Source of the DNA: Symmachiella macrocystis
GTDB lineage: Bacteria; Planctomycetota; Planctomycetia; Planctomycetales; Planctomycetaceae
Direction of reading: 5' to 3'
Assembly: GCF_007860075.1 (NCBI RefSeq)
Contig: NZ_SJPP01000001.1
Location: 2,825,490-2,889,489 of the forward strand
DNA length: 64,000 nt
Shown here in pieces: positions 11,871 through 42,064 of this stretch. Numbering within the stretch: the stretch's first letter is position 1; each line of letters begins with the position of its first letter. The translations under genes and the position numbers were made by a program. The notes beneath the pieces were generated by a model. That model was not told the DNA's origin. It searched no databases and saw only the letters and a list, made by a program, of their open reading frames with translations.

Positions 11871-13577
11871 CTAGTGAGTCCGTGGCGGGCGGCCATTATT
11901 CTTCGCGACTTGCCCGCCCCATTTCAGCAGGTTTTTGCTACAGTCGTCCCGGTCGATGGCAACCTCAATCAAAGCCAGTCCATCATGTTGTTTCGCATGG
12001 GCGATGGCCTCGCTCAATTCTTTTTCGGTGGTCACGCGGCAGCCCCAACCATTTCCGTCGTTGGCGTTGAACACGTCGACCAAGCCGGCGTAGTCCCAGT
12101 TTTTGATCGTGTTGTATGGACCGTCGTGAATCTCGACTTCGATCGTGTATCCACCGTTGTTGATCAAGAAAATGATTGGATTCGTCTCGTAGCGGATCAT
12201 GGTCGAAACTTCTTGTGCCGTCAGTTGAAACGACCCGTCGCCAATCAAGGCCACCACGCGCCGCTCGGGAAGTCCGATTGAATAGCCCAAGGTGGCGCCG
12301 ACGGACCAGCCGATCGAACCGTACTGCAATTGGATCTCAAACTTGGCTCCCGAGGGGAGGTCGAGTTGCATGCCGTTGAACCAGGAATCACCAGTCTCGG
12401 CGATGACGGCACTCTCTTCATCCAGGAGCCCTTGGATTGCGGCAAAGAGGGTTCGCGTGGTGAGCGGCGCGTCGTCCCCATTGGGCTGCGGTTGTTGGGC
12501 GGGTTCTTGAATACGTTTAAACGCCGCCAATGATGCGCCGTTGGGTTTGAGTTTGGCCGTCAAGCCGTCCAAGAAATCTGCCAACGCCACATCGTTGTAG
12601 GTTTGAGTCGGAAGAATCACGCTATCGGACGTGGCGCGAATCATTTTTTGCGGATTGATCAATGCCGTATGGCCGGTGGTGGTGTAATCGGTGAAGGTGG
12701 CTCCGGCGAACAAACACAGGTCGGCCGACTCCACGATTTCTCCACAACCGGGCGAACTGACCGGCCCCCAATAGTTTCCGATAAAACCAGGGTGCTGTTC
12801 GTCCAAAAACCCTTTCGAGTTGGGCATGTGGGCCACTGCGTAGCCGCTTGCATCGGCAAGTTGTTGAAATGCGGGAACCGCCCCACCGGCGCGGAGTTTC
12901 ACTCCGGCGACAAGTACCGGTTTGATAGCAGCGTTGAGCAGTTCAGCGGCATGCTCGATGGCTTGATCGAGGGACGTAGGATCGCTGGAGAAACGCACGT
13001 TGAAGGTACGAGGATTCGGTGAGGAGACCGTCGCGCCGGCAATATTGCAGGCAATTTCCAAATAGACCGGCTTTTGTTTCGCGAGTGCCGTCTCGATGGC
13101 TCGGTCGATTTGCCGTGGAGCTTCGGTCGGATGTTGAATCTTCACCGCTTCGGCCGTCACGCGGCGAAAGATCTCGCGTTGATATCCATAATCGACATTG
13201 CCCAAGGTATGATGCAGAAACTCGTACTCCGCTTCGGAGTTGGTATTCGGACCACCTGAGATCGCTATGACCGGCAAGTCTTCGGCATAAGCGCCGGCAA
13301 TCGCATTCAGCAAGCTCAGACCGCCGACGCTGAATGTCACAATCGCTGCCGCCGGACCACCCGTCGCGCGGGCATAACCATCGGCGGCGTAACCGGCGTT
13401 GAGTTCGTTGCAACAAGAGATCATCTGCAAGTTGCGATTGGTCAAGAACTCATCGAGCAGCACCAAGTTATAGTCGCCCGGTACAGCAAAGTATTGCCGA
13501 AGACCTATTTGTTCCAGCCGCGCAGCCAGATAGCCACCCACGGTTGTTGGGGAGTTGTCCATATTGCTTGCATTCAT
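11871..13577 (-). CDS. pdc: Pyruvate decarboxylase (TPP-dependent, Zymomonas/yeast type)
   Basis: The product (568 residues from ATG 13577; a TTG at 13589 and an ATG at 13562 are alternatives) is a thiamine-diphosphate enzyme. It shows the full set of residues of true pyruvate decarboxylases: Asp in VPGDYNLVLLDEF, Glu in CCNELNAGYAADGYAR, the HH pair in FLHHTLG, the TPP motif GDGSFQLTAQE...NN, and the second Glu in GYTIEVEIHDGPYN. The C-terminal stretch NTIKNWDYAGLVDVFN is very close to known PDC sequence. The reaction is pyruvate to acetaldehyde plus CO2. The related indolepyruvate decarboxylases are a less likely alternative. It starts 15 bases after the malic enzyme stop, so both are probably co-transcribed. 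Confidence 0.9.
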   Translation of the reverse strand: MNASNMDNSPTTVGGYLAARLEQIGLRQYFAVPGDYNLVLLDEFLTNRNLQMISCCNELNAGYAADGYARATGGPAAAIVTFSVGGLSLLNAIAGAYAEDLPVIAISGGPNTNSEAEYEFLHHTLGNVDYGYQREIFRRVTAEAVKIQHPTEAPRQIDRAIETALAKQKPVYLEIACNIAGATVSSPNPRTFNVRFSSDPTSLDQAIEHAAELLNAAIKPVLVAGVKLRAGGAVPAFQQLADASGYAVAHMPNSKGFLDEQHPGFIGNYWGPVSSPGCGEIVESADLCLFAGATFTDYTTTGHTALINPQKMIRATSDSVILPTQTYNDVALADFLDGLTAKLKPNGASLAAFKRIQEPAQQPQPNGDDAPLTTRTLFAAIQGLLDEESAVIAETGDSWFNGMQLDLPSGAKFEIQLQYGSIGWSVGATLGYSIGLPERRVVALIGDGSFQLTAQEVSTMIRYETNPIIFLINNGGYTIEVEIHDGPYNTIKNWDYAGLVDVFNANDGNGWGCRVTTEKELSEAIAHAKQHDGLALIEVAIDRDDCSKNLLKWGGQVAKNNGRPPRTH

Positions 13578-13592
13578 GAATTGAACCAATGC

Positions 13593-15281
13593 TTAGTTTG
13601 AGCGCGTCAAGGGAGCGTAAATTGGCGACCAAATGGTTTGGTCAATCCGCTTTTCAAGTTCCTCAGGCGAAGTCTTCTCGGCCAGTCCTTGGGCTTGGGC
13701 TTCGCTTGCCACAGCGACCGCGATATGCCGTGCGACATCACGAATATCTTTTAGTGCGGGCAGCAGCGACGCCGTGGGATCTTCTAAAGCGGGCGATTTT
13801 TCCTGCAATGCAATTGCCGCCACGGCGAACATTTCGTCCGACACGCGTGTCGCTCCCGAGGCGCGGATGCCCAATCCCATCGCCGGGAAAACATAGCTAT
13901 TATTGCATTGTGCGATGGCATGTGTTTTGCCGGCATATTCAACGGGATCGAACGGGCTGCCGGTCGCGATCAAGGCACGACCTTCGGTCCACTCCAGTAT
14001 TTCAGCTGGCGTTGCTTCCACGCGGGATGTGGGATTCGACAGTGGGAAGATGATCGGCTGTTCCACGTGCTGCGCCATCTCGCGGATAATCTCCTCCGGA
14101 AATGCGCCGGCATGCCCGGTGGCACCGACAAGGACTGTCGGTTTGGCATTGTGTACGACATCGGCGAATGAAATCGCACCGGTCACATCACAGTCCCAGT
14201 CGGTGAGATTGGCCGCACTTTGCGCTAGACTTTTCTCGACGGCGCTGAGATTGCTACGGCCATCGTGAATCAGGCCGTCGACATCCAAAATATAAAATCG
14301 TTGCTGCGCCTGTTCTTCACTCAATCCTTGGCGAAGCATGGTCCGTTTGAGTTGGCTGCAGATACCGAATCCCGCGGAACCGGCGCCGAGCATCACGATG
14401 CGTTGATCGGCCAGGTCGCCTCCGACCGCAGCCACGGCTGCCAGAATCGTCCCGGTCGTCACCGCTGCCGTCCCCTGGATGTCGTCATTAAACGTGCAGA
14501 GCTGATCGCGATACCGCTCCAAGATCGGCTCAGAGTCGACCGAGGCGAAGTCTTCCCATTGCAACAACACATCGGGAAAACGCCGTTTGACGGAAGCGAC
14601 GAAGCTTTCGATGAACTCGTCGTACTCCTTGCCTTTAATACGCTCATGCCGCCAACCGATGTACATCGGATCGTCTAAGCGTTCTTGATTGTTCGTTCCC
14701 AGGTCCAGCAGAATCGGCAAAGTCTTGCCCGGATGAATCCCGCCACACAGCGTGTACAACGCAAGTTTTCCAATGGGAATCCCCATGCCGCCGGCACCCT
14801 GATCGCCCAAGCCGAGAATACGTTCGCCGTCGGTCACAACGATGACATCGACGTCTTCAATCAAGTTATCCAATACGCCATCCATCAGATGACGTTCTGG
14901 ATAGGAGACAAAAATCCCCCGGGGACGGCGATAGATATGGCTGAATTGTTCGCAGGCAGCGCCGACCACCGGCGTATAGACGATCGGCATCATTTCTTCG
15001 ATGTGGTCGAGCATCAGCCGGTAAAACAGTGTTTCGTTTTCGTCCTGCAGTTGCCGCAAATAAATGTGCTTTTCAATTTCGGACTGTTTCATGCAGAACG
15101 CTTCGTACGCCCGCTGTGATTGCTCCTGGAGCGTTTCCACGTGCGGAGGCAGGAGTCCGGTCAGCCCGAAATCAATACGTTCTTGCTCCGTAAAGGCGGT
15201 CCCTTTGTTGTCGAGCGGGGATTCGATCAAGGCCCGACCGTGCAAGGGCGGGCTGGCCTGCGTTGGTTGGTTGGAAGTCAC
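13593..15281 (-). CDS. maeA: NAD-dependent malic enzyme (oxaloacetate-decarboxylating malate dehydrogenase)
   Basis: A 562-residue protein, the usual length of the large NAD-malic enzyme (E. coli MaeA type). Signature stretches are TDGERILGLGDQGAGGMGIP, FNDDIQGTAAVTTGTILAA and the dinucleotide site GAGSAGFGICSQL; LLPPHVETLQEQ is typical of the N-terminus. It converts malate to pyruvate and CO2 with NAD reduction. The start is a GTG with GAAAG upstream. Directly downstream on the same strand lies pyruvate decarboxylase, which can use the product; a malate to acetaldehyde path is inferred from this order. Confidence 0.93.
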   Translation of the reverse strand: MTSNQPTQASPPLHGRALIESPLDNKGTAFTEQERIDFGLTGLLPPHVETLQEQSQRAYEAFCMKQSEIEKHIYLRQLQDENETLFYRLMLDHIEEMMPIVYTPVVGAACEQFSHIYRRPRGIFVSYPERHLMDGVLDNLIEDVDVIVVTDGERILGLGDQGAGGMGIPIGKLALYTLCGGIHPGKTLPILLDLGTNNQERLDDPMYIGWRHERIKGKEYDEFIESFVASVKRRFPDVLLQWEDFASVDSEPILERYRDQLCTFNDDIQGTAAVTTGTILAAVAAVGGDLADQRIVMLGAGSAGFGICSQLKRTMLRQGLSEEQAQQRFYILDVDGLIHDGRSNLSAVEKSLAQSAANLTDWDCDVTGAISFADVVHNAKPTVLVGATGHAGAFPEEIIREMAQHVEQPIIFPLSNPTSRVEATPAEILEWTEGRALIATGSPFDPVEYAGKTHAIAQCNNSYVFPAMGLGIRASGATRVSDEMFAVAAIALQEKSPALEDPTASLLPALKDIRDVARHIAVAVASEAQAQGLAEKTSPEELEKRIDQTIWSPIYAPLTRSN

Positions 15282-18425: not shown

Positions 18426-18980
18426 TCAGCCGGCGGCGGTCGGAGTCGATGCGCGTGCTTGGCGATATCGGACCGACTCCCGCACCCCAAACAGCGCGAT
18501 CGGAATGACCGGAAAGCCAATCCAAAAAATGAAGTCGACCCAACGCGGAAAACGCGGAGCGACATTGAGTTCGAACGCGCAGCTGTCCGCTTGTTGATTC
18601 CCGCGCACCTCCACACCGATATTCCAAGTGCCCGGCTGCGCGAATTCAAACGATGCTGCTTGAAATAGTTTGTTCGTCGCAGAAGCAGTCGTTGCTGTAA
18701 CTCGATTGACGTTCAATGGTCGGTCGGTGTGAGATACTGAGATAGTAACCGCCGCATCCGTTACGAATCCCCCTGTTTGCCGGTCCTGGAGCAAGACACT
18801 GACATCGACCGGACCGGCGCGCAATGGAGTCGGCTCAGTGAAGACGGTCATGCGATAGTCGCCAACGTTCCCCGAAAATCGGGCCGTGCCTCCATCCCCC
18901 TTGGCCTGCGCGGGCAGCCACGCCCAACAGAACAAGCCCAGCAGTAGAAGAAATTTCCGTGAAGAGTGTGCCGTGATCAT
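18426..18980 (-). CDS. FixH/YtkA-like exported protein with C-terminal membrane helix
   Basis: From the ATG at 18980 the protein has 184 residues and starts two bases after the stop of the CtaG fusion gene. It has a signal peptide (FLLLLGLFCWAWLPAQAKGD), one beta-sandwich domain (DYRMTVFTEPTPLRAGPVDV to GTWNIGVEVRG) and a membrane helix near residues 150-170 (WVDFIFWIGFPVIPIALFGV). The beta domain, with its TEPTPLRAGPVDVSV and PGTWNIGVEV strands, is of the FixH/YtkA type seen next to cytochrome oxidase assembly genes. The anchor is at the C-terminus, opposite to classic CcoH/FixH. A role in oxidase or copper-site assembly is inferred from the neighbour. The protein is the last of the respiratory cluster. 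Confidence 0.65.
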   Translation of the reverse strand: MITAHSSRKFLLLLGLFCWAWLPAQAKGDGGTARFSGNVGDYRMTVFTEPTPLRAGPVDVSVLLQDRQTGGFVTDAAVTISVSHTDRPLNVNRVTATTASATNKLFQAASFEFAQPGTWNIGVEVRGNQQADSCAFELNVAPRFPRWVDFIFWIGFPVIPIALFGVRESVRYRQARASTPTAAG

Positions 18981-18982
18981 GT

Positions 18983-21418
18983 TCACATCCCCATCGGCAT
19001 CACGCCGCGCATTTGCATCGGCTGAAACACGAGCCAAACGCCCGCGAGAAACAAAATAACCGCTATCCCCGCCCAAGGCAGAAAGGCTCCCATGGCGCGC
19101 CGCATCCCCAAATAGCGATCGCGGGCAATGCGGTAGCCGATATACAACGACAGTAACAATCCGGCATCCAACAGGATCAGCTCCATTTTCAACAACCAAT
19201 CGGCCGTTTCTAAGCCGCACGAGCAGACCCATGCTGCCGTCTCGACGTCGCGCCATCCAAACTCACTGAGAAATCGCCGCATCGCAGCGCTGAACGCGCC
19301 GCTGCTGGTGAACAGATGGAAACTGTAATGTGCCAACCACATCGAAAATCCAAGCGGGACGAGCATGTACGAGAACCGCGTCGCGATCCGCAATGCGGAT
19401 TCGGAATCCCCACTCCAGCGACGTCCAGCCAGCGAAGCAATCGCCACCAAGCAGAATGGCACTGCCCCCAAACCCAACAGATAGCCAGCCGTGACAATGG
19501 GAATGCGACTCGCAAAACCCCACCCCGCTTGCAGCCTGTCGATCAGATCCAAGACAGGGGCGACCATTCCTGCCGCATTGACGAAAGCGGCAAAGACCAA
19601 TAGCAACACCAGCGCCGCCACATCCGTTCGACCGCCCAGCTTGCCGATCCCCGACCGCCGCGGATTACGGAGTAGTTCCCGACCGGGCAGCGTTGTCAGA
19701 ATCCCTACGTTTTGATGCGGACAGGAATGCACGCAATCGAGGCAAAACGTGCAATCAAAATTACTCGACTTGCGCGGTTGATACAAATGCAATTCACAGC
19801 CGGGAATTGCCGCAGCCGTCGCTGTCGCCGCAGCCCCACGAATGCACTCCTTGGTCGTGCACTCTTCACAGACAGACGTGTCACGGACGCGAACTTCTAA
19901 GGGCGAAACGAGTGATTGCACAAAATTGAACTGACCGATCGGGCACACGTACTTACAAAACGCCGCACCGCGAAAAAAACCATCCACCACAAACGCCGCC
20001 AGAAAATACCCCACCGCGATCCAAGCCGTCCACCAGGGGCTTTGCCACAATGAAAACACTTCATAGGCCCAGAAGAACACGAACAACAAGCCGACGGCCA
20101 GCCATTTGGAGCGCAGCCATCGCGGCCAATGTCGACGACCGCCGAACAGTGTCTTCCCCAACGTTCGCGATAATTTGAACGGGCAAGCCATGCAAAACAG
20201 ATTCCCCGCGACGAGTAACCCCAGCACCAAAAAACCGCGCCAATGAATCCACGGCAGCACACCTGCCAGATTCAGCGAAACAATCTGCGCTCCCAACAAT
20301 CCATCGACGATCACCAAAGCCGCCGCTGCGAACATCACGAATTGCAGCACCAACCGCGATTTGTTCCACCGCAGAAACCGGCCCAAGAGCGGCACGTTCA
20401 GCACGTCCCGCGCAGGGCGGTGGCTGGAATGCCCATCGTGGGAGAGTATCGGCAATTGTTGTCGCACCGGTGGGCGATGCTTAGCGCGATTCAATCGGCG
20501 GGTAGTCGGCCGCACTGCTGCGGGGGGGGCATACGTGGTTACTCGGCTCTGTACAGGGGGCATACCAGCCACGGCAAAGTGAAGTTGCCTCGACCGGGGT
20601 GCAAAGAGCAATTTATATCCGACTAACGCTCCGGCAATCACATAGGCCAGCATGCCAAACAGCCACATCAACGTTCCGGCGATGGCCTGATCATCGATTG
20701 CGGTAATGCCCCACACCTTCGGAAGTAATTCGTAATGATCATAAATCACATCGTTGGCAAACGAAAGAATTCCCGACAGAACCGTTCCTTGGACCGCCGC
20801 CAGAAACAAATAGGGTAGCAGGACCCACCGGGAATATTTCAATCGACTCGGATAGGGCTGCACGACCGGCCACCAAAACAGCATGGCTGCCCAGAAGAAA
20901 CAGGCATGCTCCAAGTTATGCAAGGTTCCAGAGCTTAGCGCAGCATCGTAAAAGCGCGGGAGATGCCAGATCCAAGTCGCTGCGACAAACAGACCCCACG
21001 CCACCGGTGGCCGCGTGAGAAAGGCAAAGCCGCTACGGATCGGTTTCCAACGATAAAGTGGCGCGATCCATTCACGACGCACGCCGGAGGGCAATCCACA
21101 CAGCAGCGGCAATTCGGGGGCACTGAGCCAAAGCAGCGGCGGTATGAGAAACATCAACAGCAGATGTTGCACCATGTGCATCCGCAACATCAACGCCGAG
21201 AAAGTTTCAATGGGCGAGAGCAGGGCGATGGACAACAAAGCCATGCCGCAACCAAACGCCGCCAATTGCCAGGCACCGAATCGCTGTGATCCACGTTGGC
21301 GAAGTACGCACCAGCCCCGCAAATACAGCAGCGATGACAGTACAATCGGAGCTACGATCCAAACGTCGAATGACCAGGAACTGAGAATGGCTTGGAACGA
21401 GGAGTCCACTGAAATCAC
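18983..21418 (-). CDS. Fusion of CtaG-type cytochrome oxidase assembly factor with a NapH/CcoG-like polyferredoxin
   Basis: A single uninterrupted 811-residue frame joins two families. Residues 1-275 are a caa3-type CtaG: multiple helices with MRMHMVQHLLLMFLIPPLLW (His81, His85), TWIWHLPRFYDAAL and TLHNLEHACFFWAAMLFWWP. After a basic, Pro-rich linker (about 285-345) follows a membrane 4Fe-4S protein: LFCMACPFKLSR (Cys409, 412), FCKYVCPIGQFN (488, 492), CEEC/C525, and a classic 4Fe-4S set CTFCLDCVHSCP (556, 559, 562, 566). At least four more helices end the protein. CtaG helps load copper into CuB, and CcoG-type polyferredoxins are proposed to reduce Cu(II). The FixH-like gene follows at once. 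Start is GTG. The joint role in copper delivery is inferred. Confidence 0.88.
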   Translation of the reverse strand: MISVDSSFQAILSSWSFDVWIVAPIVLSSLLYLRGWCVLRQRGSQRFGAWQLAAFGCGMALLSIALLSPIETFSALMLRMHMVQHLLLMFLIPPLLWLSAPELPLLCGLPSGVRREWIAPLYRWKPIRSGFAFLTRPPVAWGLFVAATWIWHLPRFYDAALSSGTLHNLEHACFFWAAMLFWWPVVQPYPSRLKYSRWVLLPYLFLAAVQGTVLSGILSFANDVIYDHYELLPKVWGITAIDDQAIAGTLMWLFGMLAYVIAGALVGYKLLFAPRSRQLHFAVAGMPPVQSRVTTYAPPAAVRPTTRRLNRAKHRPPVRQQLPILSHDGHSSHRPARDVLNVPLLGRFLRWNKSRLVLQFVMFAAAALVIVDGLLGAQIVSLNLAGVLPWIHWRGFLVLGLLVAGNLFCMACPFKLSRTLGKTLFGGRRHWPRWLRSKWLAVGLLFVFFWAYEVFSLWQSPWWTAWIAVGYFLAAFVVDGFFRGAAFCKYVCPIGQFNFVQSLVSPLEVRVRDTSVCEECTTKECIRGAAATATAAAIPGCELHLYQPRKSSNFDCTFCLDCVHSCPHQNVGILTTLPGRELLRNPRRSGIGKLGGRTDVAALVLLLVFAAFVNAAGMVAPVLDLIDRLQAGWGFASRIPIVTAGYLLGLGAVPFCLVAIASLAGRRWSGDSESALRIATRFSYMLVPLGFSMWLAHYSFHLFTSSGAFSAAMRRFLSEFGWRDVETAAWVCSCGLETADWLLKMELILLDAGLLLSLYIGYRIARDRYLGMRRAMGAFLPWAGIAVILFLAGVWLVFQPMQMRGVMPMGM

Positions 21419-21458: not shown

Positions 21459-22922
21459 TCAATCAGCCCGATCGGTGACCACCGAGGCTTCGGCCGAAGC
21501 GTAACCCTCTGGCTTTAATGTCTCCAAAAAGCTGACCAATGCTTCGACTTCGAAGCGATTCAATTCTTTGCCGTAGGCGGGCATATTTCCGCCTCCTTGA
21601 ACGACTTGTCGAATCAACTGGTCCCGCGTCAGTCGCGTCGCCACCACGGTCAGATCCGGACCCCGCTGGCCTCCCTGTCCATCGAGCGCGTGGCAGTTTC
21701 GACAGGTCTTCTCTTGAAGGATGGCCGCCCCTTGCAACTCTTTGGGCGAGCGACCTTTAATCATGTGCGTCGGCACCGGCACGCCGCTCCAGGCGGTCAT
21801 GTGCGGCGACCACGGTTCCTGCACGCCCAACTGCCACAACACGCAGTAGCTGAGGAAACAGCCGATGACGATCAGCACAGCCACCGGCCGTCGACGCGGA
21901 CTGCGCTGTCCTTTTCCGGCGAAGACCGGAAACAAGAACATGATGGCGACAATGATCACCGGCGCAATCAAAATAATCCCCGTCTCCAACGAGGGCGGAC
22001 TGAGCGCCAACACGGCGAACGCGGGCAGGAAATACCAATCGGGCAACGGTTCGACGGCCAGCAAGGTCGGATCGGGCGGCGCACCGGGACCATCAGGCCC
22101 CAAGATGGCGGACATCCCCACAATCACCAACAACGTCAATCCGATAAACGCCGCATCCCGCAAAAAGACATCCGGGAAAAACGGATCGCCTGTTTTTAGT
22201 TTCTCTTCATATTTTTCAACATAGGTTTCCGGATCGACCAGTTCATCCGGCTTGGGTGGTTCTGAGATTCCTTTGCGGATCACCAGATACAGGTGCACCG
22301 TCAGCGAGGCAAACAACAGGCCGGGCATGACAAACACGTGTAGCGCAAAGAACCGGCTCAGCGTATCCGCTCCCACCGTCGGGCCGCCCAACATCAACTC
22401 CACTAACTCCGGACCGATGTACGGAATCCGCCCAACCATCGCCACTCCGACGCCCAGACCCCAATAGGAATCGGCGTCCCAGCGCAACACTTGACCGGTG
22501 AATGCCATGCCGAGCGTCAACAAGAAAAGTACGACGCCGATCATCCAAGTCAATTCGCGGGGATATTTGTAGGCCCCCATCAAAAAGACTTGGGTCATAT
22601 GCACGACCACCAGCACCACCATGCCGTTGGCCGACCAATTGTGAATCGCTCGCAACATCCAACCGAGTTCGACGTTGTAGTTGATGTGCTCTAAGCTTTC
22701 ATAAGCTTCGCCGGCCGAGGGAACATAGACCATGCCCAAGCCGATGCCGGTCACTATCTGCAACACCAACAGTGTCATAGCCGTGCTGCCGAAAACATAC
22801 AGCCAGCCGACTTGCGTGCGGAGATCGCGCGGAATGGGGTGTCGCATCACCGTCCACAACGATGTGCGCAGCTCAAGCCGCTCTTCAAACCACCACAAGA
22901 GTTTACCGATTGCCTGTTTCAT
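21459..22922 (-). CDS. Cytochrome b fused to a C-terminal cytochrome c domain (bc complex)
   Basis: A 487-residue protein. The N-terminal 380 residues are a cytochrome b with the two haem His pairs in the b6-like region (HNWSANGMVVLVVVHMTQ and FFALHVFVMPGLLFASLTVH) and the quinol-site motif PDWY in PLPDWYFLPAFAVL, the variant of PEWY seen in many non-proteobacterial bc complexes. After the last helix comes a c-type haem domain with CRNCH and a probable Met ligand in GNMPAYGKEL. A covalently tethered haem c can replace a separate cytochrome c1. It lies 28 bases after the Rieske gene, on the same strand. The end is 40 bases from the CtaG fusion. Confidence 0.93.
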   Translation of the reverse strand: MKQAIGKLLWWFEERLELRTSLWTVMRHPIPRDLRTQVGWLYVFGSTAMTLLVLQIVTGIGLGMVYVPSAGEAYESLEHINYNVELGWMLRAIHNWSANGMVVLVVVHMTQVFLMGAYKYPRELTWMIGVVLFLLTLGMAFTGQVLRWDADSYWGLGVGVAMVGRIPYIGPELVELMLGGPTVGADTLSRFFALHVFVMPGLLFASLTVHLYLVIRKGISEPPKPDELVDPETYVEKYEEKLKTGDPFFPDVFLRDAAFIGLTLLVIVGMSAILGPDGPGAPPDPTLLAVEPLPDWYFLPAFAVLALSPPSLETGIILIAPVIIVAIMFLFPVFAGKGQRSPRRRPVAVLIVIGCFLSYCVLWQLGVQEPWSPHMTAWSGVPVPTHMIKGRSPKELQGAAILQEKTCRNCHALDGQGGQRGPDLTVVATRLTRDQLIRQVVQGGGNMPAYGKELNRFEVEALVSFLETLKPEGYASAEASVVTDRAD

Positions 22923-22950: not shown

Positions 22951-23505
22951 TTATGAGTTTTTTCCCGAGACGTGCGCGCTTCCCGGATTTTGCAACGTGG
23001 GCAGATGTCCCAATTTGACCATCAAACGGTCTTCTTCGACGCGATGCTCGAATTCGTATAATCCGCGCGGCGGCGGACCAGAGGCATGTCCTCCATCTTC
23101 GTAGTACACGCCACCGTGGCAGGGACACATATAGAGCCCCGATTCCTTAAACCACGACACCGGACAACCCAAATGGGTACAGTGCGTGGAGAATATTTGA
23201 AACGTCTCACCCTCGATCCGCCGCACATAGGCGGCCACCTTGCCGGTCATCCCATCGTTGGCGCCGCGCAGCGGGTTTAAGACATCCACCAAACGTGTTG
23301 AGTTTTGCGGGAAGTCCGTGAGTGGTCCGAAATCGACCCATTCATCGGCCCGCGGCTTGAGAATCGGCCCCAGAAAAAATCCCAAGATCGGGATCGCCAT
23401 CGCCACGCTGCCTAGCCCCAGGAGCGCCCAGCTAAACCACTCCATAAACCCCCGTCGGGTGGTTGCCGTCTCCATGGTCGGAGGTTCGCCGGATTGTGAA
23501 TTCAT
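22951..23505 (-). CDS. qcrA: Rieske 2Fe-2S protein of the bc complex
   Basis: From ATG 23505, which has AAGGA eight bases upstream, the product has 184 residues (an ATG at 23523 has a poorer site). Features are a twin-residue MxTATTRRGFMEW leader leading into a membrane helix (about 30-52, ALLGLGSVAMAIPILGFFLG), typical of Tat-exported Rieske proteins, and the cluster-binding loops CTHLGCPV and CPCHGGVY. It carries electrons from quinol to cytochrome c. It is followed by the cytochrome b-c gene and preceded by the dihaem cytochrome, all leftward. Confidence 0.94.
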   Translation of the reverse strand: MNSQSGEPPTMETATTRRGFMEWFSWALLGLGSVAMAIPILGFFLGPILKPRADEWVDFGPLTDFPQNSTRLVDVLNPLRGANDGMTGKVAAYVRRIEGETFQIFSTHCTHLGCPVSWFKESGLYMCPCHGGVYYEDGGHASGPPPRGLYEFEHRVEEDRLMVKLGHLPTLQNPGSAHVSGKNS

Positions 23506-23527
23506 ACAATTTCCTTCGTCCATTCCG

Positions 23528-24301
23528 TTACTCGTTGCCCCCTACGTCAGCGGTGCGCCACTCTGCCAGCAGGGCGACCAGGTCGGTGATCTGTTGCGAG
23601 GTCAGCGGTTTGCCCTCCAACGAATCGTTGCTAATCGCATGGTAGTTCGGCATGCCTAAGTCGCTGCGGCCGGTGATGATAATCCGTCTTAAGGCTTGAT
23701 TGCTGATGGTCCCCAGAAAACCGGCGTCGTTCAGTGCTCCCGCCGTGTCCCCTTGGCCGTCTTTGCCATGACAGGTGGCGCAATATTGCGAGAAGACTTT
23801 TTTACCGGCTTGCGTGCTACCGGGCGGGTCGGAGATTTTGTAGGGCGGAAACGGTGGTGATAGTTGGGGTGGCGTTTTTCCCCATTCCGCGCGAATGCCG
23901 GCAACGATGGCATCGATTTGTTTCTCCGTCAGCGGCCCACTCGTTTTGTGGTCCATGGCCGGCATCGGGGTGTGGTCGCGACCGTGCATGACGATCTGCT
24001 TGATATCCGCATCGGAACAAATCGCCAAAAACAGCGGATCATTCAACGGGGGCGCCGGTCCCATTGTGCCGTCGGCACCATGGCAACCCGAGCAATTGGT
24101 TTTGTAGAGCGTGGAAGAATCCATGATCGTGTCGGGACGTTTATAACGATCTGCTTCCGTGGGCTTGCCCGGCAGTGAGTCGAAGCACCCCGCGGAGAAA
24201 AATAGCGAGAACAGACACAAGCAGCCGCACCATCGCCGCAAGAAACCGTGCGACGGTTGTGGGACTTTCTTGCGAATTGATTGGATGCGTTGTCTGGTCA
24301 C
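23528..24301 (-). CDS. Dihaem c-type cytochrome, probable lipoprotein
   Basis: A 257-residue exported protein with two cytochrome c domains: CSGCH in YKTNCSGCHGADGTMGPAPP with Met in HTPMPAMDH, and CATCH in YCATCHGKDGQGDTAGALND with Met in LGMPNYHAI. The N-terminus is hydrophobic and ends in LFFSAGCFDSLPG, a likely lipobox (SAGC), so the protein may be tethered to the membrane as a lipoprotein. Its GTG start overlaps the stop of the upstream membrane-protein gene by four bases (GTGA). In this operon it probably shuttles electrons between the bc complex and the oxidase. Confidence 0.9.
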   Translation of the reverse strand: MTRQRIQSIRKKVPQPSHGFLRRWCGCLCLFSLFFSAGCFDSLPGKPTEADRYKRPDTIMDSSTLYKTNCSGCHGADGTMGPAPPLNDPLFLAICSDADIKQIVMHGRDHTPMPAMDHKTSGPLTEKQIDAIVAGIRAEWGKTPPQLSPPFPPYKISDPPGSTQAGKKVFSQYCATCHGKDGQGDTAGALNDAGFLGTISNQALRRIIITGRSDLGMPNYHAISNDSLEGKPLTSQQITDLVALLAEWRTADVGGNE

Positions 24302-25176
24302 GATTCGTCCGGTTGCGAGTGTTGGCTGTTGTCCGCCGACTGTTGGGTTTCCACTTCCAGTACCTGTTGGATTTGAACTTTTGTCGATTGCATCACGACA
24401 AACCCCATTGTGATTCCGAAGGCGAATTGTGAAACGAAGAACCAGGGCCAGTCCACCTGCTCACTCATCACTGGATTGAGGACGCCCATGAATCCGTACA
24501 CAAATCCTGACCACAACAGAGGAGCGACCAACCCGCCCCACAAAAGCGGCCAGCGCGGGCACATCGGCAAAATGATGCCAAAAAACAGACCCACGATTAT
24601 CGATGTCACCACATGAATGATCGTTCCCACTATCAAGCCCATCAGGTGGAACTTGTCGAGATCCTCAGCGCCCATGTTATTGAACGCCGGGATGACCATT
24701 GCCGAGAGCAGATTGACGGGATACCAAATGCCATGCCCGCTGAAATGCCCGTATGCCAGCGCCGTGAGCGCCATCATCGCCCCGCCGACAATCCCCCCCT
24801 TGAGGCCTGCCGAGTAGGGATAAATCTCCGCGGGAACACGCAGCCGATGGCCCGGCATTCCGGATTGAATCGAGGAGACGCCACGCGGTGAGACCTGCAC
24901 CGGTTGGGGGCGATTGCTTTCGGGAACCCATTCTTCCCAGTGCACTCCCGCGCCCGGGGTCAGGTGGCGTATCCAATACACCAATCCGCCCACCGCAATC
25001 ACCAAGCCGACCACGGCAAAGGCCAAATGCATCACCACGCTGGAAAGCGCCAAAGTCAGCCCGAATGCCATCACCATCGGCGCAGCTGTGGCGTTGGGCA
25101 TTTCCACCACCTCTTCACGCACTGGTGCGTCGCCACGTTCGGTGGAGCCTTCATGTTGTTCGGGAGAAGAATTCAA
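24298..25176 (-). CDS. Unknown polytopic membrane protein of the caa3 oxidase operon
   Basis: The start is uncertain. A GTG at 25272 would overlap the subunit III gene by 70 bases; a TTG at 25176, 27 bases after that stop, avoids the overlap and gives 292 residues; ATG 25101 is a third option. The N-terminal part has two helices (MVMAFGLTLALSSVVMHLAF and VVGLVIAVGGLVYW), reminiscent of the small subunit IV of aa3 oxidases. The rest has about five helices with GGIVGGAMMALTALAYGHFS and IIVGLFFGIILPMCPRWPLL and no haem or metal motif that I recognise. Position between subunit III and the dihaem cytochrome suggests an accessory or linking subunit; this is inference. Confidence 0.7.
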   Translation of the reverse strand: MNSSPEQHEGSTERGDAPVREEVVEMPNATAAPMVMAFGLTLALSSVVMHLAFAVVGLVIAVGGLVYWIRHLTPGAGVHWEEWVPESNRPQPVQVSPRGVSSIQSGMPGHRLRVPAEIYPYSAGLKGGIVGGAMMALTALAYGHFSGHGIWYPVNLLSAMVIPAFNNMGAEDLDKFHLMGLIVGTIIHVVTSIIVGLFFGIILPMCPRWPLLWGGLVAPLLWSGFVYGFMGVLNPVMSEQVDWPWFFVSQFAFGITMGFVVMQSTKVQIQQVLEVETQQSADNSQHSQPDES

Positions 25177-25202
25177 TGCGTCAAATCTGCTTTCTGATGC
25201 CG

Positions 25203-25829
25203 TCAACGGCCAAACACATAAACCAGACAAAAGACCACAATCCACACGCCATCCACAAAGTGCCAGTACCACGAAATCAGTTCCGCTGCCGGGCTGTCGG
25301 TCCCCAAACGTCCGGCTGCTTGGATGCCCAACAACGTCGACATCATGATCAAGCCGATCGTCACATGCGTCGCATGGAAACCGATCAGCGTATAGAACGT
25401 CGTGCCAAACAAATTGCGGCTGATCGTCAGTCCGTGATCTTCAATCAGCCCCTTCCATTCGATGCCCGTCCCCACAATGAACGCCGCGCCCAAAAATATG
25501 GTCAGCCCCAGGAACAGGCGAAACTGTCCGAATTCTGATTTCTCATACCGTTTCATAGCCAGGGCGATTGTGATGCTGCTGCTCAATAGCAATATCGTAT
25601 TCACAATCACCAGCGGCATACTGAGCACTTCCGCCGGCGTGGGTCCAGTTAGGTCTCTTCCGAGATACAAACCGTAACCCACCAGCAAGGTCATGAAGAA
25701 GGCCGCTTCGGAACACAGAAAGCAGGCCATGCCGACTTTCTTGGGATCCAGTTGCGACGTCCCTTCCCCCTCCCAACCCTGTGGGGGGGCGGCCATTTCG
25801 CCGGATGTGGTGTGCGCAATTTCGCTCAT
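25203..25829 (-). CDS. ctaE: Cytochrome c oxidase subunit III
   Basis: A 208-residue membrane protein of the short bacterial subunit III type, with five predicted helices. Typical stretches are KVGMACFLCSEAAFFMTLLV, WKGLIEDHGLTISRNLFGTT, FYTLIGFHATHVTIGLIMMS and SWYWHFVDGVWIVVFCLVYV, the last being the conserved end of COX3 (WYWHFVDxVW). Subunit III stabilises the proton-pumping oxidase core. It follows subunit I by 16 bases. Confidence 0.95.
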   Translation of the reverse strand: MSEIAHTTSGEMAAPPQGWEGEGTSQLDPKKVGMACFLCSEAAFFMTLLVGYGLYLGRDLTGPTPAEVLSMPLVIVNTILLLSSSITIALAMKRYEKSEFGQFRLFLGLTIFLGAAFIVGTGIEWKGLIEDHGLTISRNLFGTTFYTLIGFHATHVTIGLIMMSTLLGIQAAGRLGTDSPAAELISWYWHFVDGVWIVVFCLVYVFGR

Positions 25830-25845: not shown

Positions 25846-27510
25846 TTATTCGTGTTTCCAGTCCGGATCGTCGGGATGTTTCAAATCCCACAACGGCCGC
25901 CGGCTTTTGACAACCGGAAGTTCTTCAAAGTTATAAGCCGGGGGCGGCGAAGTCGTCGCCCATTCCAACGTCCAAGCATTCCAAGGGTCGTCGCCCGCTT
26001 CCTCGCCATAAAAATAGGAGTACCACAGATTGACAATGAAAAACAGCAATGAAATGCCGGTGATAATCGCACCGACGGTGGTCACTTGATTCCAAAATTC
26101 CAACCCCACACCCGCCTTATAAGTATACACGCGGCGGGGCATGCCCAGGATGCCGGAGAAGTGCATCGGAATGAACGTCAGATTGAACCCGATAAATTGC
26201 AGCCAGAAATGCCACAGCCCCAACTTACGGTTCATCTTTCGCCCAATGGCTTTGGGGTACCAATAGTAATAGGCCGACATCACCGCGAAAAAGATCCCGC
26301 CAAAGGCCACAAAGTGGAAGTGGCCGATCAGGAAATAGCTATCGCTGAGTTGCCAGTCCATCGGCACAATCGCCAGCATAATGCCGGTCAAACCGCCGAT
26401 TAAAAATAGCGAAAGAAATCCCAGCGAAAACAGCATCGGAACGGTCAAACGAATCCTGCCGCCGTAGAGCGTCGCCGTCCAGTTGAACATTTTGATTCCG
26501 GTCGGCACGGCAATCAGGAAAGTCGCAGCACTGAAAAACAGGTCGATCGTGCTGCTCATCCCGACCGTGAACATGTGATGCGCCCAGACCCCCATGGCGA
26601 TAAAGCCAATGCTCACCGTGGCCGCCACCATCGATGCATAGCCGAAGATCACCTTGCGGGAAAACACAGGGATGACTTCTGAAACGATGCCAAACGCCGG
26701 TAGCGCGAGAATGTAGACTTCCGGGTGTCCAAAGAACCAAAACAGGTGCTGCCACAACAGACCGTCGCCCCCGGCTTGCGTATCAAAGAAATGCGCACCA
26801 AGATGCCGGTCGAACAACATCATGATTTCCGCCGCCGTAAAGGGCGGAAACGCGAACACAATCAAACCAGACGTGACCAAAATCATCCAGGCGAACAACG
26901 GCATCATTGACAACCGCATGCCGGGCGCCCGCATGGTGATGATCGTGGCGATCATATTCACAGCAAACGAAACGCTCCCCACGCCCGAAATCATCGTCCC
27001 CAGCAGCCAGTAATCGGTGCTATTCCCGCGCGAAAATGCCGGCGAAGTCAGGGGGGCATAGGCGTACCAACCGATGTCGGGAGCCGAGCCGGCGCCGTAT
27101 AGGCCCATCGCGCCGAAATAGCTGAAATACAACAAAAACCCGCCGAAGAGAAACATCCAAAAGCCAAACGCGTTCAGCCGTGGAAAGGCCATGTCCCGTG
27201 CACCGATCATCAACGGTACCAAATAGTTGGCCATGCCCGCTTCCACCGGCATCACGACGAAGAAAATCATCGTCGTGCCGTGCATCGTGAACAATTGGTT
27301 GAACGTTTGCGGGCTGACGATCTCCAGATCGGGCATCCACAATTGCAGCCGCATCAACAAAGCTTCCAGGCCGCCCAGCGTCAGGAAAAAACAACTCGCC
27401 ACAATGTACAGGATGCCGATTTGTTTGTGGTCCACCGTCGTCACCCAATCGTGCGCCACCGCTGTGGCGGGGCGACGGTTCGGTAGGGCGGTGTAGGCGT
27501 CTGCTTCCAT
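25846..27510 (-). CDS. ctaD: Cytochrome c oxidase subunit I (aa3/caa3 type)
   Basis: A 554-residue, 12-helix haem-copper oxidase core. The ligands are present: low-spin haem His in FTMHGTTMIFFVVMP, CuB His and the cross-linked Tyr in FFGHPEVYILALPAFG (the A1-type GHPEVY motif), the CuB His pair in WAHHMFTVGMSS, and the haem a3/a His pair in IGHFHFVAFGG. It reduces oxygen to water and pumps protons. Starts at ATG 27510, 15 bases after subunit II, and is followed by subunit III. Confidence 0.97.
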   Translation of the reverse strand: MEADAYTALPNRRPATAVAHDWVTTVDHKQIGILYIVASCFFLTLGGLEALLMRLQLWMPDLEIVSPQTFNQLFTMHGTTMIFFVVMPVEAGMANYLVPLMIGARDMAFPRLNAFGFWMFLFGGFLLYFSYFGAMGLYGAGSAPDIGWYAYAPLTSPAFSRGNSTDYWLLGTMISGVGSVSFAVNMIATIITMRAPGMRLSMMPLFAWMILVTSGLIVFAFPPFTAAEIMMLFDRHLGAHFFDTQAGGDGLLWQHLFWFFGHPEVYILALPAFGIVSEVIPVFSRKVIFGYASMVAATVSIGFIAMGVWAHHMFTVGMSSTIDLFFSAATFLIAVPTGIKMFNWTATLYGGRIRLTVPMLFSLGFLSLFLIGGLTGIMLAIVPMDWQLSDSYFLIGHFHFVAFGGIFFAVMSAYYYWYPKAIGRKMNRKLGLWHFWLQFIGFNLTFIPMHFSGILGMPRRVYTYKAGVGLEFWNQVTTVGAIITGISLLFFIVNLWYSYFYGEEAGDDPWNAWTLEWATTSPPPAYNFEELPVVKSRRPLWDLKHPDDPDWKHE

Positions 27511-27525
27511 GACAACAATTGCCCG

Positions 27526-28680
27526 CTATCGAAGGGTTTCCAGATATGAGACGACGGTTTTGACGTTTTCGGCTGTCAGTTTCATCTCGGGCATATAGCA
27601 GCCCGTTTTGAAAACATGTGGATTCGTGATCCAAGTAATCAGATTGTCGTGATTGTTCTCAGCGGCCCCGGCACCGATGGTTTGACGGCTCATTAGATGC
27701 GTCAGGTCCGGCCCAAAGGTGCCCCGCGCGTTGGTGCCGCGAATCGTATGGCAACTGGCGCAGGAATGTTCCAGAAACAGCGCCCGCCCGTCGGCGACCG
27801 CAGGATCGTTCACCGCTGGCTTCTTTTCATTCTCCACCCAAGCTGCAAATTCGCTGGGGGTTTCCACGATCACCCGCAACAACATTTTCGAGTGTTGCGT
27901 CCCGCAGTATTCCGCACATTGCCCGTAATAGACGCCCGTCTCGTTGGGCGTAAACCACATCGTGTTGATTCTGTTGGGGATCAGATCGGTCTTGCCGGCC
28001 AGGCGTGGGACCCAAAAACTGTGCGCCACATCTGCCGATTCCAATTGCATAAAGACCGAACTGGGATCTTCAGTGTCGTCCAGCGGGACATGCAATTCAT
28101 TCGCGGTGATGAATCCCAGTTCGGGATATTCGAAGGACCACCACCATTGGTTTCCAATCACCCGCACCTGCACGGCATCGCCCGGAGCCTGCGTGGGCCG
28201 CTGTTCATTGACCGATCGGACGACCACCAGGAACAAGACAAAAATGATTAACAGCGGCGCGATCGTCCAGGCAATCTCGATTGGCCAACTGCCATAAATT
28301 TGCGGGGGTTCCGGCTCATCCTCCGTTTCACTGCGACGCGCACGAAACCGCACCACGAATACCGCGATGGCGGAGAACACCAATACAAAAATCAAGCCGG
28401 TGATCGCCAACACCAGCAGGAAGATTTCGCTGATCTTTTCGGAGTTGTACGAAGCCGTGTCGAAGATCGACGTGCTTTCGGCCAGCAGCACATTGGCGGT
28501 TCCCAGCAAAGCCATCGCCGTCAGCAAGACACGCCGTAGGCTGCGGATAACAATCCGCGAGGGAAGTTTGGCCGTCATCAACAACCCGGCTGCGCAAGTG
28601 CGACGCGCGTCGTCCGGCTCGATTCTGCCGTGCGATCGTTGCGATTGAATTCCATCCTGAGCAACGGGTCTGTCCTTCAT
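27526..28680 (-). CDS. ctaC: Cytochrome c oxidase subunit II fused to cytochrome c (caa3 type)
   Basis: Starting at ATG 28680 the protein has 384 residues (a TTG at 28695 with a GAGGA site and an ATG at 28578 are alternatives; only the last starts directly at a signal-like sequence). After a leader and two membrane helices lies the CuA cupredoxin domain with IGNQWWWSFEYPE and the CuA loop GQCAEYCGTQHSKM. The C-terminus is a cytochrome c domain with CASCH and a Met ligand in GCYMPEMKL. This makes the oxidase a caa3 enzyme that takes electrons through its own haem c. It is the first gene of the respiratory cluster. Confidence 0.94.
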   Translation of the reverse strand: MKDRPVAQDGIQSQRSHGRIEPDDARRTCAAGLLMTAKLPSRIVIRSLRRVLLTAMALLGTANVLLAESTSIFDTASYNSEKISEIFLLVLAITGLIFVLVFSAIAVFVVRFRARRSETEDEPEPPQIYGSWPIEIAWTIAPLLIIFVLFLVVVRSVNEQRPTQAPGDAVQVRVIGNQWWWSFEYPELGFITANELHVPLDDTEDPSSVFMQLESADVAHSFWVPRLAGKTDLIPNRINTMWFTPNETGVYYGQCAEYCGTQHSKMLLRVIVETPSEFAAWVENEKKPAVNDPAVADGRALFLEHSCASCHTIRGTNARGTFGPDLTHLMSRQTIGAGAAENNHDNLITWITNPHVFKTGCYMPEMKLTAENVKTVVSYLETLR

Positions 28681-28859
28681 TGCTGCAAAGTACAAACAAA
28701 TTCCTCGTGCGGCAACTACGAATATGGAATGTTGTTGAGAGATGAACGGATTTTATTCACGCCGAGAAGGTGCCCCTTGGGAGGACCGGAGCTGCTGCGT
28801 AGATTCAGCCGCGGGGGAAATCCAATGCGCGCAGGATGGCTCAGGGCAACTGCCGCGAG

Positions 28860-41280: not shown

Positions 41281-41892
41281 TCATTGCCGTTTGGCTTTGA
41301 CCATGATCACCGCTCCGAAAATCCACACCAGCAGCGAGAAGTGCAAACTGATAAAAGAAATCAGCACCGACAGCGCACCGGATATTCCATAAACGTGTCG
41401 TGCTGCCCAAGGATACTTCAGCAAGGGGGGCGGTTTTCCCGGTTCGCGCAAATCGGGCCGGCTGGCCATGCGGCGGGCAATGAGCACCAACGAGCCTCCG
41501 CCTGTGGCCAAGTCGACATTGAACAAGATGACCGCAAAACGATCATTGTCGTAATGTCCGACCAGCGAAGCTGTATACGGAATTAGTGTCACCAAAAAAA
41601 TGTGCAAGAAATTCAGGCTGACGATTGTTAAGTCGCACTCGCGCTGATGCGTGAACAACCGGTGGTGCCGCTGCCAGATTTGAGCCACCACGGTGAAACT
41701 GGCAATATACGCCAAGAAGGTGGGGAACTGCTGTAAGACGTCATCCATCAACGCGTCGTTCGAGAGGTTGGCATCCTGCGGCGGCTTCAGGTCCAGCACA
41801 AGCAACGTCAAGACAATCGCGTAGACTCCATCGGTCAATGAACATAACCGTACCGGAGAAGAGGTCCACCTTGCATCGTTGTTCGATTCCAT
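41281..41892 (-). CDS. TMEM175-like (DUF1211) membrane protein
   Basis: From ATG 41892, with AAGGTGAG upstream, the protein has 203 residues and about six helices. The first helix carries RLCSLTDGVYAIVLTLLVLD, a version of the R-x3-(F/L)-S/T-DGVxAI-x-xT motif that defines TMEM175 potassium channels, although the usual FSD is TD here. WQRHHRLFTHQRECDLTIVS and NFLHIFLVTLIPYTASLVGH also fit the family. Bacterial members conduct potassium as tetramers. It is divergent from the glutamate decarboxylase gene (172-base gap). Confidence 0.82.
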   Translation of the reverse strand: MESNNDARWTSSPVRLCSLTDGVYAIVLTLLVLDLKPPQDANLSNDALMDDVLQQFPTFLAYIASFTVVAQIWQRHHRLFTHQRECDLTIVSLNFLHIFLVTLIPYTASLVGHYDNDRFAVILFNVDLATGGGSLVLIARRMASRPDLREPGKPPPLLKYPWAARHVYGISGALSVLISFISLHFSLLVWIFGAVIMVKAKRQ

Positions 41893-42064
41893 ACATCTCA
41901 CCTTGCGTGAAATTCGATTGCCGGTCATTGTGCCGATGGCCCGGTCAAAAAGAAAGCTAGTTGCCAAGCTTGCATCGACGGCGCACAATGACCGTCGAGC
42001 TGATAGCCACCAACACTTACACGATAACGTGTACCACTAAAATAGATTTCAAGGCAAAAGCATT

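Follow-up and report, generated by a model that had tools for sequence, protein, structure and literature searches.

How copper stays reduced during its insertion into caa3 oxidases, and what role CtaG plays there, are questions on which a gene fusion in the planctomycete Symmachiella macrocystis bears. The fusion lies in a 64,000-nucleotide stretch of DNA (contig NZ_SJPP01000001.1, positions 2,825,490 to 2,889,489), here called the window, whose own coordinates are used throughout. It joins CtaG in one frame to a polyferredoxin, a membrane protein with two predicted 4Fe-4S clusters, and stands with a small FixH/YtkA-like gene at the end of a bc-caa3 operon. A previous reading of the letters alone (the original prediction) had proposed that copper reduction and insertion are coupled in this one protein. 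We consider it somewhat probable that the fusion loads copper, in a redox-coupled manner, into the bc-caa3 oxidase encoded by its own operon.

One frame, two membrane modules

The fusion gene and its parts are as follows.
18983..21418, minus strand: CtaG–polyferredoxin fusion gene, 811 amino acids, GTG start; single frame kept in relatives
20618..21328, minus strand: Caa3_CtaG domain, residues 31-267 (Pfam PF09678)
20417..20593, minus strand: linker, residues 276-334; basic, variable in length, predicted local distance difference test score (pLDDT) below 50
19025..20365, minus strand: polyferredoxin half, residues 352-798; nine membrane helices read from the structure model

The original prediction had described a single uninterrupted frame joining a caa3-type CtaG to a NapH-like polyferredoxin, and this was borne out: the 811 codons contain no internal stop. 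Residues 31-267 matched Caa3_CtaG well over its Pfam cut-off (E 9.9e-56; 189 bits, cut-off 27.7), and the CtaG half scored 58.6 bits against the NCBIfam equivalog TIGR02737, under that model's cut-off of 279.35. The best NCBIfam match in the C-terminal part was NapH/MauN (TIGR02163; residues 466-571, E 3.2e-8), at 33 bits far under the 213 bits set for membership; three unfused relatives and a more distant homologue (L040) were also under it, at 21-40 bits. When searched alone against Pfam, the C-terminal part gave only sub-threshold matches (Fer4_5 at E 0.01, Fer4_10 at E 0.03, and Fer4_7 at E 3.5). NapH was thus rejected on score as the identity of this half. The likeness to CcoG that had also been proposed would extend to the two predicted 4Fe-4S clusters; filing this half as CcoG was rejected, since neither the fusion protein nor the window's genome has a match to FixG_C (PF11614) and the membrane part continues further at the C-terminus, where it bears HxxxH and PMxMR motifs.

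A sequencing or frame artefact was rejected, as the same fused frame recurs in many genomes. The initial search for relatives returned 12 loci, one cut at a contig end (L012) and one unfused (L013), and the complete fused frames were all free of stops (10/10). The AlphaFold model of the fusion (mean pLDDT 86, predicted template modelling score 0.70) is confident in both halves and of low confidence at residues 276-334. A PDB sequence search with the fusion gave no match at E <=1, and a PDB fold search with its model gave nothing at E <=0.001.

A probable single origin within part of the phylum

Occurrence was surveyed in overlapping samples of 294, 392, 81, 301 and 397 genomes. Counted from match rows, with the two halves required to share an open frame, the fusion was present in 34 of the 397 class genomes and in 34 of 81 genomes of family f87, the latter comprising 31 with and three without the cluster region as judged by match coverage. 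The remaining matches in these two surveys were CtaG alone, polyferredoxin alone, at contig edges, gapped or partial; five genomes were set aside in the family survey (G348, G759, G710, G720, and G712), and in G971 of the class survey the halves lay on different contigs. Two genomes of the class survey (G905 and G825) showed one TGA in the matched stretch, and the G905 locus (L169) still reads as one frame. Across the phylum, at least 9 of 392 genomes carried the fusion, one of them cut at a contig end (62 genomes matched, with flanks examined for about half, the better matches), and CtaG of any kind was detected in 14 of 294. The original prediction would have been undermined if close relatives always had two separate genes; in the window's genus, all three genomes of the class survey (G000, G934, and G967) carry the fusion.

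In a tree of the polyferredoxin half (40 chosen rows, with cluster-less proteins left out), all 18 fused rows and the contig-edge L012 grouped together as a clade (support 100/100) that sits within the unfused rows. Nearest to it were L095 and L096 from the Chloroflexota sample (85/76 support). The CtaG half (41 of 61 rows) likewise gave a fused clade (99/98) that included L153, labelled "alone" there owing to gaps, and its nearest relatives were CtaGs of the Chloroflexota sample. Judged from these sequences, the simplest account would be that the two genes fused once and that the product was then spread or inherited within part of the phylum.

Two apparent splits were considered and rejected. 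Genome G333, of the same class, has the genes apart; the tree places its polyferredoxin among the unfused rows, and the CtaG of this genome, located elsewhere near another COX1, groups with unfused planctomycete CtaGs. The apparent gene split in G710 (L153) is not biological and reflects runs of N in the scaffold. Genome G920 has, besides an unbroken copy elsewhere, a second copy of the fusion in several short frames (L174:6811-9167, plus strand), which is either a decayed copy or an assembly error. A plasmid search matched 8 records, all at <60% identity.

The fusion accompanies a bc-caa3 operon

Upstream of the fusion and in the same direction lie the genes of a respiratory chain segment.
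27526..28695, minus strand: COX2 with C-terminal cytochrome c, caa3 type (Pfam, NCBIfam)
25846..27510, minus strand: COX1, CtaD/CoxA over cut-off (Pfam, NCBIfam)
25203..25829, minus strand: COX3 (Pfam)
24298..25272, minus strand: 324-amino-acid protein, family unassigned, membrane-like by eye; conserved in the operon
23528..24301, minus strand: di-haem cytochrome c (Pfam, two stretches)
22951..23523, minus strand: Rieske protein (Pfam)
21459..22922, minus strand: cytochrome b with C-terminal cytochrome c (Pfam)

The order is thus COX2-cytochrome c, COX1, COX3, the 324-amino-acid protein, di-haem cytochrome c, Rieske protein, cytochrome b-cytochrome c, the fusion, and the FixH-like gene. By Pfam and NCBIfam the oxidase is an A-type caa3 enzyme, not a cbb3 oxidase with ccoGHIS, which agrees with the caa3 setting originally proposed.

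To examine neighbours, the flanks of 22 fused loci (L009 and L147 being from one genome) and of 28 of the unfused loci were searched on the same strand with a few probes, so that the counts are lower bounds. COX genes, the 324-amino-acid protein and the di-haem cytochrome c were found within 5 kb of the polyferredoxin match in 20 of the 22 fused loci. In L003 and L006 the sequence stops short on the COX side; the fusion therefore tracks caa3 operons in every locus with enough flank (20/20), and the order is conserved. A FixH-like match followed the fusion in 20 of the 22, weakly in L039, and none was seen in L148 (614 bases left) or L149 (1,710 bases left); these three are the cluster-less loci discussed below. 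At the thresholds applied, neither Pfam nor NCBIfam matched the 324-amino-acid protein; it is possibly a subunit or an assembly factor.

Invariant residues and their predicted sides of the membrane

The polyferredoxin half carries the following motifs.
20180..20194, minus strand: CxxCP (C409, C412), invariant in 40 homologues and kept in all wider-set rows covering it
19940..19957, minus strand: CxxxCP (C488, C492), cysteines invariant in the 40-row alignment and the wider set
19721..19870, minus strand: eight cysteines (C517 C520 C525 C541; C556 C559 C562 C566), two predicted 4Fe-4S clusters, predicted cytoplasmic
19316..19330, minus strand: HxxxH (H697, H701) in helix F7, predicted outer half; invariant in the 40 rows and both wider sets
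19217..19225, minus strand: outer-loop Cys pair C732-x-C734, found only in the fused clade
19004..19021, minus strand: C-terminal PMQMRG, predicted outer face; P, first M and R invariant in the 40 rows

Twelve cysteines (those of CxxCP and CxxxCP and two sets of four) are invariant across the 40 homologues, two distant ones included, so that the "at least nine" clustered cysteines first reported were a cautious count. Invariance extends to both His in HxxxH and, in PMxMR, to P, the first M and R. The eight cluster cysteines fall into two sets of four, with the Fer4 models below cut-off as noted above. Nine loci (L087-L091, L111, L112, and also L038 and L151) have inserts of variable length in the first set, before its fourth cysteine.

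The wider set held 81 rows (48 fused and 33 with the polyferredoxin "alone"). L001, a truncated copy of the window's own gene, was dropped from the fused rows. The others lost two rows that group with the fused proteins: L012, at a contig edge, and L153, with its scaffold gaps. A second residue set was read from 20 of the 34 fused class loci, four of them already included and 16 new. Of the two Met in PMxMR, one is missing in each of two unfused proteins of the wider set (L086 and L113). The CtaG half conserves H81, M82, H85, H152, H167 and H171 among the fused rows that extend over these positions, L015 being truncated at the edge of its contig.

Using helices from the AlphaFold model with hand-adjusted boundaries, we found that loop charges alternate over 47 fused proteins, weakly around residues 187-239. 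This charge topology would place the cluster region, CxxCP and CxxxCP on the inner face; on the outer face it would put the six CtaG residues, the point at which the HxxxH helix ends, the loop leading into helix F8 and the C-terminus.

At least two Cys occur in the loop before F8 in 56 of 63 distinct fused proteins (40/47, and 16/16 of the further ones), and any Cys at all in none of 31 unfused proteins, those beside SCO included. The seven exceptions have one Cys (L005), Met-rich loops (L025 and L125), Met and His (L039, L148, and L149, the last with one Cys in addition) or one Met (L131). Because the fused proteins form one clade, the outer Cys pair is best read from these alignments as one gain with some losses, not as many independent events.

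A FixH-like gene two bases downstream

18426..18980, minus strand: FixH/YtkA-like gene, 184 amino acids, ATG start; N-terminal helix, beta sandwich, C-terminal helix

The claim of a neighbour two bases away with a FixH/YtkA-like beta domain held in part. The gap between the stop of the fusion and the start of this gene is exactly 2 bases, and the model of its product (pLDDT 89) predicts an Ig-like beta sandwich; membership in either family did not follow, the protein scoring 21.7 bits against YtkA (PF13115), under the Pfam cut-off of 25.9, and giving no match to FixH (PF05751) at E <=0.01. Its best PDB fold match was the copper resistance determinant CrdA from Helicobacter pylori (9ll4; Foldseek E 2.9e-5), which we take to be YtkA-like, with copper-binding FtrA/P19 and PmoD ranking lower. 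Non-copper sandwiches (a PKD domain and TRAP) were also matched at E <=0.001, and a PDB sequence search gave a single match at E 0.44. The MxHxGM motif, presumably a mark of copper carriers, occurs in YtkA at three loci (L013, L095 and L096) and is absent from the window's protein. Because the protein is below the family cut-offs and without this motif, the sequence makes a weak case for a copper-carrier role.

Copper genes beside some unfused polyferredoxins

The polyferredoxin also occurs unfused. The two Chloroflexota-sample loci nearest to the fused clade (L095 and L096) have the gene order YtkA, polyferredoxin, SCO, CtaG and FixH; Pfam confirmed YtkA, SCO and CtaG in L095, with the last gene sub-threshold, and SCO in L096. 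L013 reads PCuAC, YtkA, polyferredoxin and SURF1, a SCO match lies beside or after the cassette in L105-L108, and L113 has SCO and CtaG. In total, YtkA/FixH was found within 5 kb on the same strand in 27 of the 28 unfused loci, SCO near 7, CtaG near 3, PCuAC near 2, a P-type ATPase near 2 (one weak, L109) and SURF1 near 1; a further copper or assembly gene beyond YtkA/FixH was present in 10 of 28 (L109, with its weak ATPase match, among the ten). The probes detected no COX, cytochrome b or Rieske gene at the 28 loci. A C-terminal part unrelated to electron transfer would have told against the original prediction; it is a polyferredoxin, and some of its unfused relatives stand beside SCO, PCuAC, CtaG or SURF1. 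For Bacillus subtilis, YtkA (CtaK) has been postulated to act with Sco in CuA assembly (PMC13344008).

Other relatives show further arrangements. In L114 (6891-7856, minus strand; Chloroflexota sample), YtkA and PCuAC share one frame directly before the polyferredoxin gene. The locus of L040 (and L041, by eye) has a molybdopterin oxidoreductase, a redoxin-like gene and other cysteine-rich genes. Proteins of a distant planctomycete branch carry, within one frame, a YHS domain at the N-terminus, over the Pfam cut-off in 4 of 7 proteins tested; the YHS-bearing relatives are L042, L048, L051 and L054, with weak matches in L045 and L046, and several of their loci contain frames matched by the di-haem cytochrome c probe. 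YHS/TRASH domains bind metals.

Copper loading and its alternatives

If the fusion loads copper, the two predicted cytoplasmic 4Fe-4S clusters would take electrons from some cytoplasmic donor, and the polyferredoxin would hold copper as Cu(I) at membrane sites of its own (CxxCP, CxxxCP, HxxxH, the outer Cys pair, and PMxMR). Next to CtaG, the clusters may maintain copper, or the thiols that bind it, in the reduced state, and the tethered CtaG would hand copper to the oxidase through its His/Met set on the outer membrane face. The covalent link suggests that reduction and insertion are one coupled job. Three results lend support to copper loading: Cox11-type CtaG had no match in 22 genomes, 14 of them fusion carriers; FixG_C was matched in only 1 of 16 fusion-carrying genomes; and SCO was matched in 15 of 16 such genomes tested. 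We also put forward, as a proposal falling a little short of an even chance in our judgement, that in Chloroflexota and Planctomycetota this polyferredoxin family acts as the redox partner when copper is delivered to A-type haem-copper oxidases, with a CcoG-like role; that in Planctomycetota it was fused to CtaG a single time and gained an outer Cys/Met/His copper relay, so as to reduce, perhaps carry, and insert copper; and that in one genus the clusters then disappeared and the copper path persisted.

That genus is g259, in all three of whose genomes in the family survey (L039, L148, and L149) the whole eight-cysteine region is gone, with no N or frame break. These proteins keep the fusion, the operon, CxxCP, CxxxCP, HxxxH, and both Met and the Arg of PMxMR. 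They also lack the outer Cys pair, as do L025, L125 and L131, which yet keep the cysteines of the clusters. Because the membrane motifs are kept after the loss of the cluster cysteines, the comparison argues that they may have a role of their own.

Several observations weigh against copper loading and need to be considered with it. Because g259 retains fusion and operon without the cluster cysteines, its sequences argue that cluster-driven reduction would be dispensable, at least in this genus. By the probes used, 17 of the 28 unfused loci have YtkA/FixH only and L036 has none, six planctomycete genomes have an unfused polyferredoxin and no CtaG match at all, and the genes around the more distant homologue L040 make up a molybdopterin-oxidoreductase locus. 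Moreover, no invariant bis-His haem site was seen that could serve as an electron path from the inner clusters to the outer sites; by analogy with CcoG, reduction could instead take place at the inner face. Of the coupled reduction and insertion originally proposed, a conserved module ending a caa3 operon is supported; CcoG identity and a strict need for clusters are not, the case for a FixH copper carrier is weak, and CuB is a candidate recipient alongside CuA.

The main rivals are thiol reduction and a copper exit path, both of which we regard as unlikely. As a thiol-reducing factor, the protein would use its clusters to reduce the outer Cys pair and then the disulphides of SCO or of CuA in COX2, and copper would not be its substrate. 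The frequency of the outer pair in fused proteins is consistent with this, as is the presence of SCO near seven unfused loci (by Pfam on two) and in nearly all fusion carriers tested. However, no unfused protein has a Cys in that loop, even beside SCO, five of the seven pair-less fused loops bear Met or Met and His, which suits metal ligands better, and no transmembrane electron relay is seen. Somewhat less probable still is that Cu(I) is conducted from CxxCP and CxxxCP on the inner face to the outer His, Met and Cys and then to CtaG, with the clusters reducing incoming Cu(II). The predicted placing of both Cys motifs inside and of the other motifs outside would fit such a path, and so would the motifs retained in g259, but there is no transporter family match in Pfam and no fold match in the PDB.

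It is also conceivable that copper is not involved and that the protein carries out NapH/NosR-like electron transfer between quinol and the periplasmic cytochromes of the bc-caa3 chain. The best family matches are indeed NapH/NosR models, the operon specifies an entire segment of the respiratory chain, and the distant homologue L040 sits with a molybdopterin enzyme. We nonetheless hold this to be improbable, considering that the TIGR02163 scores are far under the cut-off, that the fusion partner is an assembly factor, and that copper or assembly genes occur at ten of the unfused loci and COX, cytochrome b or Rieske genes at none.

Other genes of the window

Two further loci in the window are recorded here.
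11871-15281, minus strand: thiamine-diphosphate decarboxylase, indolepyruvate-decarboxylase-like (375 bits, under cut-off), 3 bases from a malic enzyme
41281-41988, minus strand: homologue of TMEM175-type potassium channels (PF06736, 1.8e-24)

The decarboxylase/malic enzyme pair suggests a route from malate through pyruvate to an aldehyde; that the enzyme acts as a pyruvate decarboxylase is a guess.

Comparison with known systems

The published systems below are given as the cited sources describe them. The N-terminal half resembles B. subtilis caa3_CtaG (PF09678/TIGR02737) in exceeding the Pfam cut-off and in its caa3-type operon, whereas the fusion scores far under the TIGR02737 cut-off and carries a second membrane module. 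Even for B. subtilis, the copper site of CtaG and its target, CuA or CuB, are described as not settled (PMC13344008). In Corynebacterium glutamicum, CtaG-CopD also combines CtaG in one chain with a copper-handling membrane module, but the partner there is CopD, for import, and not an iron-sulphur protein (PMC13344008).

CcoG/FixG is a cupric reductase in cbb3 oxidase assembly (PMC7558416). Like CcoG, the fusion is a membrane protein with a pair of 4Fe-4S clusters (in its case predicted), has a FixH-like gene nearby and would serve oxidase assembly; it differs in having no FixG_C, more membrane sequence at the C-terminus (where HxxxH and PMxMR lie), an A-type oxidase and a fused CtaG. YccM-type homologues of CcoG are said to lack FixG_C too (PMC7558416), so its absence would not exclude the wider CcoG family. 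NapH/MauN and NosR (TIGR02163, NF046105) are alike in the stretch around CxxxCP and in the ferredoxin-like cysteines; the fusion differs in scoring far under cut-off, in its C-terminal membrane extension and in its copper-oxidase context. Archaeoglobus fulgidus CopZ likewise has a copper-delivery protein fused to an Fe-S domain, though it is a cytosolic chaperone and not a membrane oxidase factor (PMC7558416). CrpH of Bordetella pertussis is a putative copper reductase that backs haem-copper oxidases, but it is a PepSY_TM haem protein of an unrelated family (PMC13038864).

In the openly licensed literature, the only kind searched, we found no description of the fusion or of this polyferredoxin family. 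The natural CtaG–polyferredoxin link, the unfused cassettes with SCO, PCuAC or YtkA, and the natural cluster-less variant provide candidates and mutants for testing. Each element, as far as these sources describe them, has a precedent: CtaG-CopD (PMC13344008), CcoG, and CopZ with its Fe-S domain (PMC7558416).

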